A DNA stretch of 9,533 bases from an uncultured Roseateles sp. (GTDB taxonomy: Bacteria > Pseudomonadota > Gammaproteobacteria > Burkholderiales > Burkholderiaceae), in contig CAMPJJ010000158.1 in NCBI GenBank assembly GCA_946886855.1, positions 1 through 9,533 on the forward strand. The letters are read 5' to 3'. This document shows, one piece after another, positions 1 through 9,533 of this stretch (position 1 is its first letter; each line of letters starts with the position of its first letter). A program made the translations under genes and the position numbers. The notes beneath the pieces were generated by a model. That model had not been told where the DNA came from. It worked only from the letters and a program-made list of their open reading frames with translations, and did not search any database.

Positions 1-1835
1 ACGCGCCCGCATCGGGCCGCATGGCCGTGGCCGAGGCCATCACCAACCTGCTGGCCGCGCCGATCGAGCTGTCGCGCGTGAAGCTGTCGGCCAACTGGAT
101 GGCCGCCTGCGGCGAGCCCGGTGAGGACGCCGCGCTGTACGACACCGTCAAGGCCGTCGGCATGGACCTGTGCCCGGCGCTGGGCATCTCGATCCCGGTC
201 GGCAAGGATTCGCTGTCGATGCGCACGCGCTGGTCGGAAGGCGGCGACACGAAGCAAGTCACCGCCCCGGTCTCGCTGATCATCACCGCCTTCGCCTCGC
301 TGGCCGACGTGCGGGGCACGCTGACGCCGCAGCTGCGGGACGGCGACACGACGCTCGTGCTGGTCGACCTCGGCCAGGGCCGCATGCGCATGGGCGGCTC
401 GATCCTGGCGCAGACGCTGAACCAGTTCGGCCCCGAGGTCCCCGACCTCGACGATCCCGCGCTGCTGAAGGCGCTGGTTGCCGCGGTCAACGACCTGCGC
501 GGCCAGGGCAAGCTGCTGGCGTACCACGACCGCAGCGACGGCGGCCTGTTCGCCGCGGCGCTGGAGATGGCCTTCGCCGGCCAGCGCGGCGTCAGCCTCA
601 ACGTCGACATGCTGGTCACCGAAGGCGACGGCATCAGCGACAGCCGCGCCGAGGTGGGCGACTCCAAGAACTGGGCCTCGCAGGTCAGCGCCCGCCGCGA
701 AGAACTGACGCTGAAGGCGCTGTTCAACGAAGAGCTGGGCGTCGTGCTGCAGGTCGCGACCGGCGACCGTGACGCGGTGCTGCAGACGCTGCGCGCGCAC
801 GGCCTGTCGAAGCTCTCGCACGTCGTCGGCAAGACCAACGACACGAAGCAGGCGGAAGTCTGGCGAGACGCCAAGAAGGTCTTCGCCGCGCCGCTGAACG
901 AGCTCCAGCAGGAGTGGGACCAGGTCTCGTGGCGCATCGCCCGCGAGCGCGACAACCCTGCCTGCGCGGACCAGGAACATGCGCTGGCCGGCGCGCCGGG
1001 CAAGGGCCTGCACTGGGCCCCGAGCTTCGACGTGAAGGACGACGTCGCCGCTGCGCTGATCGCCAGCGGCGTCCGTCCCAAGGTCGCGATCCTGCGCGAG
1101 CAGGGCGTCAACTCGCATGTCGAGATGGCCTACGCGATGGCGCAGGCCGGCTTCGACGCCTACGACGTGCACATGAGCGACCTGCAGGCCGGCGCGGTCG
1201 ACCTGAAGGACTTCAAGGGCTTCGTCGCCTGCGGCGGCTTCAGCTACGGCGACACGCTGGGCGCGGGCGAGGGCTGGGCGCGCTCCATCCTGTTCAACCC
1301 GGTGCTGAAGGCGGCCTTCGAGGCCTTCTTCGCGCGCACCGACAGCTTCGCGCTGGGCGTGTGCAACGGTTGCCAGATGCTGGCCGCGCTGTCGCCGATG
1401 ATCCCCGGCGCGCAGGACTGGCCGAAGTTCGTGCGCAACCGCAGCGAGCAGTTCGAGGCCCGCCTGGCGCAGGTGGAGATCGTCGACTCGCCGAGCATCT
1501 TCTTCACCGGCATGGCCGGCAGCCGCCTGCCGATCGCGGTCGCGCACGGCGAGGGCTTCGCCGACTTCTCGCAGCGCGGCAACCCCGACCAGGTGCTGCG
1601 CGCGATGCGTTACGTCGACGGCGACGGCCAGCCGACCGAGCAGTACCCGCTGAACCCCAACGGCAGCCCGCAGGGCCTGACCGCGGTGACCACCGCCGAC
1701 GGCCGCTTCACCGCGCTGATGCCGCATCCGGAGCGCGTCTTCCGCAACATCCAGATGAGCTGGACCGGCGGCGACGCCGGCGCGTTCAGCCCGTGGATGC
1801 GGATGTTCCGCAACGCGCGGAAGTGGGTGGGGTGA
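1..1835 (+). CDS. purL: Phosphoribosylformylglycinamidine synthase (FGAM synthase), C-terminal part
   Basis: PurL converts FGAR, glutamine and ATP to FGAM in the fourth step of cytoplasmic de novo purine synthesis. The reading frame is open from base 3 and codes in the PurL frame before the first ATG at 21, so the gene is cut by the window edge. About 610 residues are visible of the roughly 1,300 usual for the single-chain proteobacterial form. The first half is the second PurM-like ATP-binding domain, with the motifs [27 protein letters not shown] and LFNEELG. From about base 1077 a class I glutamine amidotransferase domain follows: [12 protein letters not shown], then CGGFSYGD, the nucleophile Cys in GVCNGCQ (codon 1362-1364), and the His and Glu of MPHPERV (codons 1725-1727 and 1731-1733). 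The triad is complete and the protein ends in the usual place, so it looks functional. It is the only plus-strand gene here and converges on the PilV-like gene. Confidence 0.97.
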
Positions 1836-1890
1836 CACCCGGCGGCGCCTGACGCCGCATGGCGCGCCGGTCAGGGCGCATCGATGGACG

Positions 1891-5766: not shown

Positions 5767-5794
5767 ATTATCCCGGAGCGCCGCGCCGACTCAA
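5767..5794 (-). promoter_or_regulatory. Candidate sigma70-type promoter of the protease gene
   Basis: On the minus strand TTGAGT (5794-5789) and GATAAT (5772-5767) are separated by 16 bases. They match the -35 and -10 consensus at 4 and 5 of 6 positions. The -35 box overlaps the stop codon of the receiver gene. Transcription would start near 5760, about 25 bases before the protease ATG. An AT-rich hexamer such as GATAAT stands out in this GC-rich sequence. No sigmaE-like box was seen. If real, the protease is not wholly dependent on read-through from the kinase/receiver genes. Confidence 0.5.
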
Positions 5795-6267
5795 CCGGTG
5801 GGCGCTTCGCCCCCCGCCCATCGGGCGATCTCGGCTTCCAGATGGGCGGCGCGTTCGCGCAGCAGATCGGCGGTCGCCTTGAGCTGCAGGTGGGTGCGCA
5901 CGCGCGCCAGCAGGATGGGCGGGCTGATCGGCTTGGTGATGTAGTCCACCGCGCCGACCGACAGGCCGTGGCTTTCATCCGCGGGATCCGAGCGCGCCGT
6001 GAGGAAGAGCACCGGGATGTCGCGCGTGGCCGCGTCCGCCTTGAGCCAGCGACACAGTTCGTAGCCGTCCATGTTGGGCATCAGCACGTCCAGCAGGATG
6101 AGGTCGGGCGGCGGGGCCTCGGCCGCGATGCGCAGCGCGCGGTCGCCGGTGGTCGCCACCTTGACGCGATGCCGCTCCTTGAGCAGCTCGTAGAGCTGCG
6201 ACAGGACTTCGGGCGAATCGTCCACGATCAGGATCGTCGGGCGGGGATCTCCGTTCGAGATGCTCAT
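5791..6267 (-). CDS. Stand-alone receiver-domain response regulator
   Basis: The 158-residue protein is one CheY-like receiver domain (about 10-128) plus a short charged C-terminal helix (about 129-150) and no output domain. All catalytic residues are present: the acidic pair Asp16/Asp17 (LIVDDS), phospho-acceptor Asp60 ([11 protein letters not shown]), Thr90 (LTA) and Lys112 (TKP). The segment [19 protein letters not shown] and the helix after it resemble receivers that are usually fused to HD-GYP or GGDEF output domains, but this one stops right after the helix. Its ATG overlaps the kinase's TGA in an ATGA arrangement. GGAGGA lies 9 bases upstream (6277-6282), inside the end of the kinase gene, so translation is probably coupled. 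It most likely exchanges phosphate with the kinase's Hpt or signals by protein contact; the target is unknown. Confidence 0.93.
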
Positions 6268-6282: not shown

Positions 6283-9200
6283 ATCGATCGGGCGCCGGCG
6301 GCCGCGTCGTCGTCCAGACCGCGGCGCGCGACGTCGAAGTCGAAACGCGCGGTGGCTTCCAGCACCTCGCACAGCGCGGCGGCGCGCCGGTCGTCGAGGC
6401 CGTGGCGGCCGCGGGCCATCAGTGCCTTGACCCGCTCGGCGGTGTCCACCGCGGCGGCGTCGTGTTCGGTCAACTGGCGGCGCAGGCGCGCCAGGTGTTC
6501 CTCCAGTCGGGGGCTGTCCGCCGGCTGCGACGGGTCGTCCAGCGGACCTGGCATCGTCGGCGGCGTGTCGTCGGCCAGGGTCTCGCCCAGCGCGTGCAAC
6601 AGGCGGTCCAGCGCGGCGCGCACGGCCCGGGCCAGTTCCCGGCGCTGCGCCGACGGCGCCTGGGCGCGGCAGGCGGTCTCCAGCGCGGCGGCGGCCTCGC
6701 TCACGGGCAGCGCGCCGATGGTCGCGGAGGAGCCGCGCAGCGAATGGGCGAGCTGCTCCAGCGCGGCCGCGTCGTCCGACGCCGCCGCCTGCGCGAGACG
6801 GTCGCCGGTGTCGCGCTGGGAGTGCAGGAAGATCCGCAGCAGGCGCAGGTACAGGCCGGCGTTGTCGGCGGCCGAGGCCAGGCCTGAACGCGACTCCAGC
6901 CCGTCGACGACGGGCAGCGCCGGGGCGATCACCTGCACCGGCCGGGCCCTCCCGGCCCGCGCGCCCGGGATCGATGCGGTGTCGTCGGATGCGATGTCGG
7001 TCGATGCTGCGCCGGTCGTTGCTGCGCCGGTCGAAGCGGCGTCGGCAAAAGCGGAGTTGGCCGAAGCAGAGTCGGCTAAGGCGGAGTCGGGCAATGCGGA
7101 GTCGGGCAATGCGGAGTCGGGCAATGCGGAGTCGGTAAATGCGGAGTCGGGCAACGCGATCCTTGCCGGCGTCATGGCGTCCGGGAATCCCTCGTCCGGC
7201 GCGACCGCCCCGGGCTCGGCCGGGTGCACCCAGCGCGACAGGACCTCGAACAGCGTGTCCACGTTCATCGGCTTGGCGATGTGGTCGTTCATCCCGGTGG
7301 CCAGGATGCGGGCGCGGTCGGCGCCGGTGGTGTTGGCGGTCAGCGCGATGACCGGCAGCTCGCGCCATCGCGGGTCCTGGCGCAGGCTGCGGGTGGCGTC
7401 GTAGCCGTCCATCACCGGCATCTGGCAGTCCATCAGCACGCCGTCGAATCCGTCGGGCGAGCGCTGCAGCAGGTCCAGCGCGATCGCGCCGTTGCCCGCC
7501 AGCGTCACCGCGATGCCGGCCTTGGTCAGCAGCTCCTCGACAAGTTCCTGGTTGACCGGGTTGTCCTCCACGACCAGCAGCCGCGCGCCCGCCAGCGACT
7601 GCATCGTCGCCCGCGTCGCCGCGCGCCGCGCGTGGGGATCGGACGCCGCGCCGGGCGAGGCCGCTCCGCCCAGCGCGTCCCGCAGCAGGGCCGCCGTCAC
7701 CGGCTTGGCCAGGACGGGCAGGGGCTGGCCGTCGGGCAGCGCGCCGGTCGTCGCCATCGCCGTCATCGCCTCGTACAGGCGGTCGTCGTTGCCGAAGGCC
7801 GTGACCATCACGACCCGGGGCTGCGGGGACGCTTCCTCGAACAGGCGGGCCGCGGTGGCCAGCCCGTCCATCTCCGGCATCTTCCAGTCCATCAGCACCC
7901 AGTCGAACGGACGGTGCTCGCGGGACGCCGCCTGCACCGCACGCAGCGCGCGCGGGCCGTCGGCGGCCTGCTCCACCTGCAACCCCTGGCCCTGGCAGAG
8001 CGCGGCCAGCACCTCGCGGGCGACGCGGTTGTCGTCGACCACCAGCGCACGGCCGCGCAGCGCCGTGGGCGCGAGGGACGACGCGGTGGCCGCGTTCCCC
8101 GCATTCCCCGAGTTTCCCGCGTGGCGGCCATCGTGCCCTTCATGCCTGTCGTGCCCATCGATCCCATCGATTCGGTCGATTCGGTCGATTCCGCACACCG
8201 GATCCGCCACTACGCCCAGCCGCGCCGTGAAGTGCAGGGTCAGGCCGGCGCCGGGCATCGACTCGACGCGCAGCGTACCGCCCATCATCTCCACCAGCAT
8301 CCGGCACACCGCCAGCGCCAGATCGCCGCGGTCGGGGGCATCGGCCTCCGCCTGCGCGGGGCGTCGGATCAGCCGCGCCAGCTCGGCCGGCGTCAAGGCC
8401 GGACCGCTGTCGCGGATGCTGAACTGAAGCACGATGCCGCCGCCGGACGGCGCGTCGCCATCGGCCGGCACGACCGAGACCGCGACCACCACCTCGTCCT
8501 GCTCGCTGCGGCGCGCGGCATGCTTGCCGATGTGGGCCAGCACCTGGCCGAGGCGGAAGGGATCGCCGATCAGCGTGCGCGGCAAGCCGGCGGGCACGCT
8601 CAGCAGCAGCTCCACGCCCTTTTCCTCCAGGCCCAGGCCGACGACCTGCACCAGGTGGGCCAGGACCTCGTCGAGCTCGAACGGGATCTGCTCGAGGACC
8701 AGCCGGCCGGCCTCGATGCGGCTGAAGTCGAGGATGTCGTCGATGACCCCGAGCAGCGTCTCCGCCGCGCGGCAGGTCTTGTCGACGTAGTTGCGCTGCC
8801 GCGCGTCGAGCTCGGTCTGCAGCGCCAGCTCGGACATGCCGATGATGGCGTTCATCGGCGTTCGCAGCTCATGGCTCATGTTGGCGAAGAAGTCGGCCTT
8901 GGCGCGCGTGGTGGCCTCGGCGGACTCGCGCGCGACGCGGATCGCCTGCTCGGCGGCCAGGCGCTCGGTCAGGTCCATCAGCCACACCAGCATGCCCGAG
9001 CGGTCGAAGTTCACCGGCAGGAAGGCGGCCACGCAGGCGCGGGGCGCGCCCTCGGGATCGAGGATCTGCAGCTCGATGTCGTTGCCGGAGCCGCGGCGCT
9101 CCAGCAAGGCCTGCGCGCGGTCGCGGCTGCCGTCGTCCGCATAGGCGTCCGGCCACGGCCGGCCGACCTGGACGTCGACCAGGCGCCGCAGCGCCGGATT

Positions 9201-9533
9201 GGCCAGGCTCACCACGCCGTCGGAGATCAGACCGATGCCGATGGGCGTGTGCTCGATCAGGCCCATGAGGCGCTCGCCCTGACGGAGCAGCGCGGTCTCC
9301 TGCGCGTGCCGCGCGCTGCGCACCGCGAGGTTGCGCAGCAGCGCGGCGAGCGCGGCGAAGCACAGCAGCGCGGACAGCAGGCCCACGCCGGCCCGGGCCG
9401 GCACGCCGAGCACGCCCGACCGATCGGCGACGAAGACCATGCGCCACGGTCCGGCGCTGTCGCGCCAGCCCAGGTCGCGGGACACCACGGCATGCGGCCG
9501 GCCGTCGATCGTCACGTCGCGGGCGTCCCGGGC
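6264..9533 (-). CDS. Hybrid sensor histidine kinase with degenerate ATP-binding domain (PAS-HisKA-HATPase-REC-REC-Hpt), N-terminus cut off
   Basis: The frame is open to the window edge, so the GTG at 9515 is not the true start. Numbering below counts that codon as 1; at least 1,089 residues are visible. Order: end of a probable extracytoplasmic sensor domain (1-35), one membrane helix (about 40-62), PAS-like domain (about 83-185), HisKA with His215 in SHELRTP, HATPase_c (about 315-432), a repeat linker (442-475), REC1 (about 488-615; Asp494/495, Asp543, Thr572, Lys604), REC2 (about 643-765; Glu650/Asp651, Asp696, Thr726, Lys748), a pentapeptide-repeat linker (787-846), an Hpt domain with His924 in AHSLRGSS, and a helical tail (about 1000-1083). 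The ATP-binding domain is degenerate. The N-box asparagines are His328 and His332 (LAHIGKHA). The G1 box is DSGPAL rather than D-x-G-x-G. The G2 box reads RGDLALAV where GTGLGLAI is expected. Phosphotransfer residues are otherwise intact. It sits upstream of and overlaps the receiver gene, its likely partner in a BarA-like relay. The signal sensed is unknown. Confidence 0.93.
6978..7157 (-). repeat. 15-bp in-frame tandem repeat (12 units) coding a pentapeptide linker
   Basis: Twelve 15-base units in register encode five-residue units of the pattern Ala-[Leu/Phe/Ser/Thr]-x-[Asp/Asn/Gly]-x (best ALPDS), residues 787-846 of the hybrid kinase between REC2 and Hpt. Three adjacent units (about 7083-7127) are identical at DNA level apart from the array edge, and the units decay toward the Hpt side. 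Codons such as TTG, TTA, TTT and GCA are frequent here and unusual beside the GC-ending codons of the flanking domains. Because the period is a multiple of three, gain or loss of units keeps the frame and only changes tether length. Confidence 0.9.
8091..8192 (-). repeat. 9-bp periodic repeat coding the linker between the ATPase domain and REC1
   Basis: On the minus strand successive 9-base units can be read in frame: GGAATCGAC, CGAATCGAC, CGAATCGAT, GGGATCGAT, GGGCACGAC, AGGCATGAA, GGGCACGAT, then a changed set GCGGGAAAC, TCGGGGAAT, GCGGGGAAC. They encode Gly-Ile-Asp, Arg-Ile-Asp, Gly-His-Asp and then Ala/Ser-Gly-Asn units, residues about 442-475 of the hybrid kinase. The segment is low-complexity and hydrophilic and probably a flexible tether. 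Confidence 0.8.

Follow-up and report, generated by a model that had tools for sequence, protein, structure and literature searches.

The hybrid sensor protein HK3, whose gene lies at one end of the window (the whole 9,533-nucleotide stretch of DNA that was analyzed), was found to combine a degenerate ATP site with conserved phosphotransfer residues. Our preferred reading, to which we assign a probability of about 0.5, is that HK3 has been conserved as a hybrid sensor without kinase activity and would serve as the phosphotransfer partner of an adjacent active kinase, HK2, in a relay to a receiver.

The window and the ATP site of HK3

The genes of the window and the domains of HK3 were arranged as follows.

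9533-6264, minus strand: 3' part of the hybrid sensor gene HK3 (1089 codons, with the 5' end beyond the window, reading frame open throughout), encoding a hydrophobic stretch and an N-terminal region without an assigned domain, then HisKA, a degenerate HATPase_c, two REC domains, Hpt and a tail
8706-8903, minus strand: HisKA (DHp), residues 211-276, with the phosphoacceptor His221 at 8871-8873
8220-8567, minus strand: degenerate HATPase_c (CA), residues 323-438, from Pfam match, alignment and model
8505-8537, minus strand: former N box, with H334 and H338 replacing two Asn (alignment)
8397-8411, minus strand: remnant of the G1 box, D375-S-G-P-A379 (alignment)
8313-8333, minus strand: former G2 box or ATP lid, DRGDLAL, three residues shorter than in GGSGLGL-type paralogues
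7689-8048, minus strand, outer limits approximate: REC1, with the acidic pair, Asp549, Thr578 and Lys610 kept
7239-7577, minus strand: REC2, with Asp702, Thr732 and Lys754 kept
6597-6845, minus strand: Hpt, residues 897-979, with His930 kept (6744-6746)
6264-6267, minus strand: HK3 stop and receiver start, overlapping in ATGA
5791-6267, minus strand: stand-alone receiver gene REC (158 aa, Asp60), directly downstream of HK3
ca. 5735 (ATG) to 4641, minus strand: HtrA-type protease gene
4553-3546, minus strand: luciferase-like monooxygenase, MsnO8 family
3386-1914, minus strand: prepilin-type protein
3-1835, plus strand: purL, 3' part

HK3 residues follow the 1089-residue numbering, six above that of an earlier, sequence-only reading of this DNA (His215, His328, His332 and Asp369 there are His221, His334, His338 and Asp375 here). 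The Pfam scores of HK3 (HisKA, 77 bits; HATPase_c, 44.6 bits, with a cut-off of 26.4 bits; REC, 154.2 bits; Hpt, 50.1 bits) all exceeded the curated cut-offs, and this domain composition indicated that HK3 is a hybrid HisKA histidine kinase by descent. The DHp domain kept HELRT, an HExxT motif of the phosphatase type. The linker between CA and REC1 (ca. 8049-8219) was of low complexity and rich in D, G, H and R, and 9-base units are repeated in tandem within it at 8167-8191. The linker between REC2 and Hpt held a tandem 15-base repeat of 8.2 copies (6998-7158), with overlapping 30- and 45-base rows, which encodes repeated peptide units; the same linker differed in the HK3 relative P0007.

Elsewhere in the window, purL was 97% identical to a Roseateles noduli locus and 96% identical to a Rubrivivax MAG locus, which makes a Roseateles-like betaproteobacterium the probable source. 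A sigma-70-like promoter match (TTGAGT-16-GATAAT, 5767-5794, minus strand; shuffles averaged 0.0) between the receiver gene and htrA suggested that htrA may have a promoter of its own. Antisense open frames lay opposite HK3 (7224-9533, plus strand, 770 aa) and purL (3-1838, minus strand, 612 aa), both leaving the window; they were not counted as genes. Very long antisense frames are expected at about 71-74% G+C.

The ATP site was compared in an alignment of 120 rows of 121, drawn from the best 120 of 4052 matches; P0027, which has an unusual H box, was left out, and its ATP-site residues were intact in a separate residue comparison. Both N-box Asn and the GG[ST]GLG box were present in 103 of the 120 rows, while the other 17 had neither Asn. 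Where the 103 intact homologues have Asn, HK3 has His334 and His338. No F box of the LFQSFSQ type was present, G1 kept Asp375 and Gly377 with Pro-Ala in place of Ile-Gly, and G2 read RGDLAL rather than GGSGLGL, with three residues deleted ahead of it. Measured against the ATP boxes of an active kinase, the window's HK3 failed, with N, F and G2 gone and G1 half gone. Pfam HATPase_c scores were 85-98 bits in intact relatives and 37-50 bits in the HK3 clade members scanned. A structure model from a 46-sequence alignment reached pLDDT 88 with all CA helices and strands present, and a misalignment is unlikely given so confident and complete a model. Residues and model together make it very likely that HK3 is inactive as an autokinase, and we infer the label "pseudokinase" from sequence and fold. 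The idea that such hybrids commonly have degenerate ATP boxes was ruled out by the 103 intact rows and by 29 family loci (L105-L133, drawn from 61 places other than HK3), all of which had both N-box Asn and the G2 box.

The sequence-only reading had located residue loss in a preserved domain at 8190-8600, a span that covers the HATPase_c domain, and its description of the site held. The HisKA His, both receiver Asp and the Hpt His were in place (His221, Asp549, Asp702 and His930), both N-box Asn were His, G1 had kept Asp and one Gly but not the last, which is Ala, and G2 read R-G-D-L-A, to which the three-residue deletion and the F-box loss are now added. Its view that no frameshift was involved agreed with the 17 clade members described below, and the better alignment that it had envisaged as restoring the boxes was opposed by the 120-row alignment and the model.

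Conservation and selection in the HK3 clade

The HK3 clade had 17 members, including P0001 and P0002, which are the window's own protein; members were 53-100% identical to the query over the aligned part. None of the 17 had the N-box Asn or the F box, and all lacked three lid residues; these members rule out a strain-specific lesion or frameshift. The phosphoacceptor His, HExxT and both receiver Asp were kept in 17/17, and the Hpt His in 16/17. The G1 Asp and first Gly were kept throughout, the last G1 Gly was replaced by Ala in 10 of the 17 (retained in P0011-P0017), and GSGLGL was retained in three (P0012-P0014). These graded counts indicated that N-box loss is common to all HK3 and that the G-box changes have gone furthest in the window's branch. 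The clade-wide residue pattern thus supports the earlier view that autophosphorylation was probably lost and phosphotransfer residues kept. The earlier question of whether the N-box and G2 changes are conserved in the clade received a divided answer, as the former was clade-wide and the latter was not universal; no clade orthologue had the N-box Asn that would have pointed to a lesion of one strain.

One member, P0010 (Roseateles chitinivorans, 1139 aa), read as out of frame behind REC2 relative to P0007, which bears the same species name and is full length; the apparent shift removes Hpt and represents either a sequencing error or a real loss. In a tree of 63 rows, from which HK2_L097 and P0027 were absent, a 100/100 branch separated all 21 HK3 rows from the rest. 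A sister relation of HK2 and HK3 can be called possible, given the midpoint root and a flagged meeting of long branches.

CA-domain dN/dS was 0.18-0.40 in HK3, 0.25-0.32 in HK1 and 0.17-0.29 in HK2 (the paralogous kinases described below), and the HK3 values rose to 0.45-0.58 once the distant L003 was included. In all five HK3 domains and all pairs dN/dS was below 1, with a maximum of 0.62 (REC1 with L003). CA identity within each group was 82-89% (HK3), 88-89% (HK1) and 87-91% (HK2). Judged by these ratios, the HK3 CA domain is constrained much like that of its intact paralogues, under purifying selection. DHp dN/dS was 0.03-0.10 in HK3, below that of its CA domain, and 0.00-0.04 in HK1.

The HK3 core was found at 89-93% identity in 3 of the 16 genus genomes, and the HK2 core in the same three; other HK3 matches, at 53-60%, were intact HK1-type places. 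This search used cut-offs, and the G003 copies (L003) fell under both the HK3 and the HK2 cut-off. A literature search that included Roseateles and Mitsuaria brought up no paper recognizable, by the titles listed, as concerning this locus.

The gene array, the proposed relay and its rivals

Related loci carried a tandem array in the order HK1, RR1 (HD-GYP), HK2, HK3 and REC. At L004, L098, L099, L100 and L101, HK1 (an intact hybrid kinase) and RR1 (REC-HD-GYP) were followed by HtrA or monooxygenase, either directly or across one or two pilin-like genes. At L001, L002 and L097, HK2, HK3 and the lone receiver stood behind RR1. At L003 the HK2-HK3-receiver set lay at a contig end, with HK1-RR1 of the same genome (G003) on another contig (L098). 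We infer that the window's genome has HK2 upstream of HK3, as in these relatives. Gene overlaps were ATGA for HK2/HK3 (4/4 loci), TGATG for RR1/HK2 (3/3) and ATGA for HK1/RR1 (both examined); HK3 and the receiver overlapped by ATGA in three of five cases (the window, G001 and G002). Among 15 other HK3 clusters, contigs presumed from their equal lengths to be shared linked five with HK2, four with a lone receiver and four with HK1, and seven had no contig partner in the lists. RR1 had HDIGK and GYP in 8/8 cases, and we take HK1-RR1 to be an RpfC/RpfG-like pair. This pair is the likely source of the duplicates.

HK2 was represented by 13 clusters, the top 13 of 120 matches listed. Its N-box, G1 and G2 residues were intact in all 13, and the Hpt was missing from all 13, with 0-11 residues in the Hpt columns compared with 109-113 in HK1 and HK3, while the tail that follows Hpt was still present. 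A Pfam rescan of eight of these clusters gave no Hpt up to E=1, and P0036 (HK2) had no Pfam Hpt up to E=0.05. Loss of Hpt was not unique to HK2, as 8 of the other 107 listed matches also lacked a precomputed Hpt. The losses in HK2 and HK3 leave one neighbor as a kinase lacking Hpt and the next as an Hpt protein lacking kinase function. The sequence-only reading had offered phosphorylation by a partner kinase, phosphatase action and a scaffold role feeding the coupled receiver as alternatives; the likely partners lie beyond the window, upstream of HK3. HK2 is a candidate phosphate donor that this reading did not have, and the coupled receiver, judged from related loci, is much like the REC of a REC-HD-GYP regulator truncated within the linker.

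The lone receiver is, by its sequence, an RR1-like copy that lacks HD-GYP and ends in the linker to it. Over 131 codons, the copies of the window, G001, G002 and G009 shared 95-100% identity. At L001 and L002 it had hardly changed (identity to the window of 1.00 and 0.99), with HK3 at 82-83% in aligned parts; so little change beside a less conserved HK3 suggests a protein with several partners. Compared with RR1, the helix-1 region was 45-50% identical and the remainder 69-76%, and helix 1 was 91-100% conserved within the lone-receiver group and 91-100% within RR1. The first receiver helix is the seat of partner choice in known systems. We read the lone receiver and RR1 as two receivers, each apparently held to a different partner. 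A lone receiver at no less than 87% identity occurred in 4 of 16 genus genomes, and some match at E<=1e-52 in 11 of 16. Among 299 sampled family genomes, with 12 candidates scored per genome, 36 had a receiver match at E<=1e-52; that of G001 was the lone form at 99%, and the others were at 58-66%, in frames of at least 375 aa. Among the best 120 of 180 matches in the protein database, seven lone-receiver clusters stood at 84-96% identity over at least 93% of the query, and beyond them identity was at most 69%, save one 94-residue piece at 96%.

In the proposed relay, HK2 would autophosphorylate and pass phosphate to a receiver and, lacking an Hpt of its own, would give it to the Hpt of HK3, from which it would reach the single-domain receiver, the product of the gene that follows and overlaps HK3. 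The HK3 DHp domain, with its His and HExxT kept, and the two receivers of HK3 would probably add control, in that HK3 could act as a phosphatase or withdraw phosphate under the command of its own sensor region. We presume both which way phosphate flows and what the receiver does; the receiver may make a contact like that of CheY or DivK, or may store phosphate on behalf of the HD-GYP branch. In favor of this relay, HK2, HK3 and the receiver stood together in G003 though HK1-RR1 lay on a separate contig (L003 and L098), and the divergence of receiver helix 1 from RR1, with conservation in its own group, is as would be expected of a re-aimed partner. The relay also draws on the ATP-site losses of HK3 with its phosphotransfer residues kept, on the intact ATP site and missing Hpt of HK2, on the gene overlaps and dN/dS ranges given above, and on the precedent of RcsC/RcsD.

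Several observations counted against the relay. A second Hpt is at hand in HK1, which is encoded in the same operon and also has an intact ATP site. The DHp His would be dispensable in an RcsD-like role, yet it was kept in 17/17 HK3 members. The receiver gene did not overlap HK3 in G009 and G003, and HK3 CA identity was slightly under that of HK1 and HK2, with the raised dN/dS when L003 was included. The counts of 13/13 for HK2 and 17/17 for HK3 are not independent, as each loss was probably one event, and one strain may manage without Hpt, as P0010 reads as out of frame behind REC2. Across three genomes, DHp identity was 82% for HK3-HK1, 63-66% for HK3-HK2 and 72-76% for HK1-HK2, and CA identity was 42-48%, 46-49% and 62-63%, respectively; the DHp of HK3 is nearer to HK1 than to HK2, which points at HK1 and away from the relay.

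This likeness makes a RetS-like brake the main rival, albeit a somewhat unlikely one. HK3 would pair with HK1 through its HK1-like DHp and would block HK1 autophosphorylation, draw phosphate to its own receivers or dephosphorylate the HK1 receiver, so that less signal would reach the HD-GYP (presumed c-di-GMP) regulator RR1. The closeness of DHp at such low CA identity, the HExxT kept in every HK3 member, and the best solved relatives by sequence and fold, which include GacS (7z8n) and RetS (6dk7, 6dk8 and 7n0e), are consistent with this. However, hybrid-kinase DHp domains are alike in general, so 82% is no proof of pairing, and a brake would leave unexplained why HK3 kept its Hpt, why HK2 lost its own, and why HK2-HK3-receiver stand apart from HK1-RR1 in G003.

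A dimeric phosphotransferase of the Spo0B/ChpT/PhyT type, in which the DHp His221 would itself carry the relay, taking phosphate back from a phosphorylated receiver or receiving it in trans from HK1 or HK2, is improbable. It would account for the DHp His kept throughout the clade and for a DHp under stronger constraint than the HK3 CA domain, and excerpts on PhyT, PhyK and ChpT provide precedents (PMC5898713, PMC5964349, PMC3433190), but a relay step in DHp would be superfluous in a protein that already has an Hpt and two receivers, and the DHp of intact HK1 is at least equally constrained. It is very improbable that the HK3 CA domain still binds ATP weakly through substituted residues, making HK3 a slow or conditional kinase; the CA fold is intact in the model, and the G1 Asp and first Gly (17/17), last G1 Gly (7/17) and GSGLGL (3/17) survive to different extents, but every member lacks the two N-box Asn and the F box, along with three residues of the lid. 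Relaxed decay of HK3 as a redundant duplicate toward a pseudogene, as its tandem origin and the P0010 frame might suggest, is hardly credible with dN/dS below 1 throughout (maximum 0.62), open frames and changes centered on ATP residues.

Comparison with known systems

RetS and GacS were among the solved folds nearest to HK3. RetS carries a 7TM-DISM sensor and, to our knowledge, has two receivers and no Hpt. The sensor of the window's HK3 lies beyond the window; a domain scan of the HK3 members P0003, P0004, P0007 and P0012 found no 7TM-DISM sensor, and P0012 had a dCache_1 stretch scoring below the cut-off. Unlike RetS chain 7n0e_B, HK3 has lost the second N-box Asn, and it has an Hpt and a tandem operon; given its Hpt and different N box, RetS orthology is not supported. 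HK3 resembles RetS as a hybrid with a degenerate HATPase and two receivers, and RetS is reported to belong to a multikinase network and to dephosphorylate or withdraw phosphate (PMC5992135).

PhyT/PhyP, PhyK, ChpT and Spo0B relay through the DHp His, unlike HK3 in the relay proposed here. We know of none among them that is a hybrid with an Hpt. They are like HK3 in having a kinase fold, a relay His that is kept and an ATP site that is degenerate or dispensable, and the PhyT and PhyK systems share with it a single-domain receiver partner: PhyT has a degenerate ATPase domain and phosphate passes from the single-domain SdrG to PhyR, PhyK is described with phosphate passing from MrrA to PhyR, and the ATP pocket of ChpT is closed (PMC5898713, PMC5964349, PMC3433190). 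ChpT was absent among the 50 matches listed in each of two fold lists, and a likeness may exist all the same. DivL of Caulobacter, whose solved core 4q20 matches HK3, is described as a pseudo-histidine kinase with links both to a single-domain receiver and to another kinase (PMC5361649). In DivL, however, Tyr replaces the phosphoacceptor His, whereas HK3 keeps His221 and has lost ATP-site residues, and a DivL-type pseudokinase is ruled out by this His. The same paper puts kinases in which the phosphoacceptor His is replaced at about 1% and notes that few bacterial pseudokinases had been studied.

HK3 shares with the RpfC/RpfG-like pair HK1-RR1 the layout of a hybrid kinase with Hpt beside a receiver, REC-HD-GYP in that pair; HK3 differs in lacking an ATP site and its lone receiver in lacking HD-GYP. 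In RcsC/RcsD, an active kinase stands beside an inactive-kinase-Hpt protein (PMC13317618). HK3 would be like RcsD in joining an inactive kinase core to an Hpt, beside an HK2 in relatives that has no Hpt. It is unlike RcsD in keeping the phosphoacceptor His and having two receivers, and the system is unlike RcsC/RcsD in that the HK2 neighbor has visibly lost an Hpt and the next gene encodes a lone receiver, not a regulator such as RcsB. An RcsD orthologue is ruled out by the two receivers and the lone receiver next door, given the RcsD layout (PMC13317618).

We tentatively suggest, at slightly under even odds, that the RpfC/RpfG-like pair was duplicated in tandem and that complementary loss followed (Hpt in HK2, the ATP site in HK3, HD-GYP in the second regulator), which would have produced an obligate two-protein phosphorelay with a lone-receiver output and would mean that the division of labor seen in RcsC/RcsD arose a second time, independently, with the ancestral HK1-RR1 still in the operon. 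HK3's kind is already known, as RetS, PhyT and ChpT keep the His with a degenerate ATP site and RcsD joins an inactive kinase to an Hpt. A few models (RcsD, RetS, PhyT and DivL) represent the known bacterial relatives of histidine kinases that lack kinase activity, and in one Roseateles/Mitsuaria array the kinase-dead HK3 can be read beside an intact paralogous pair, a reciprocally reduced neighbor and a truncated receiver, making the splitting of a multi-domain kinase into a multi-protein relay directly testable.
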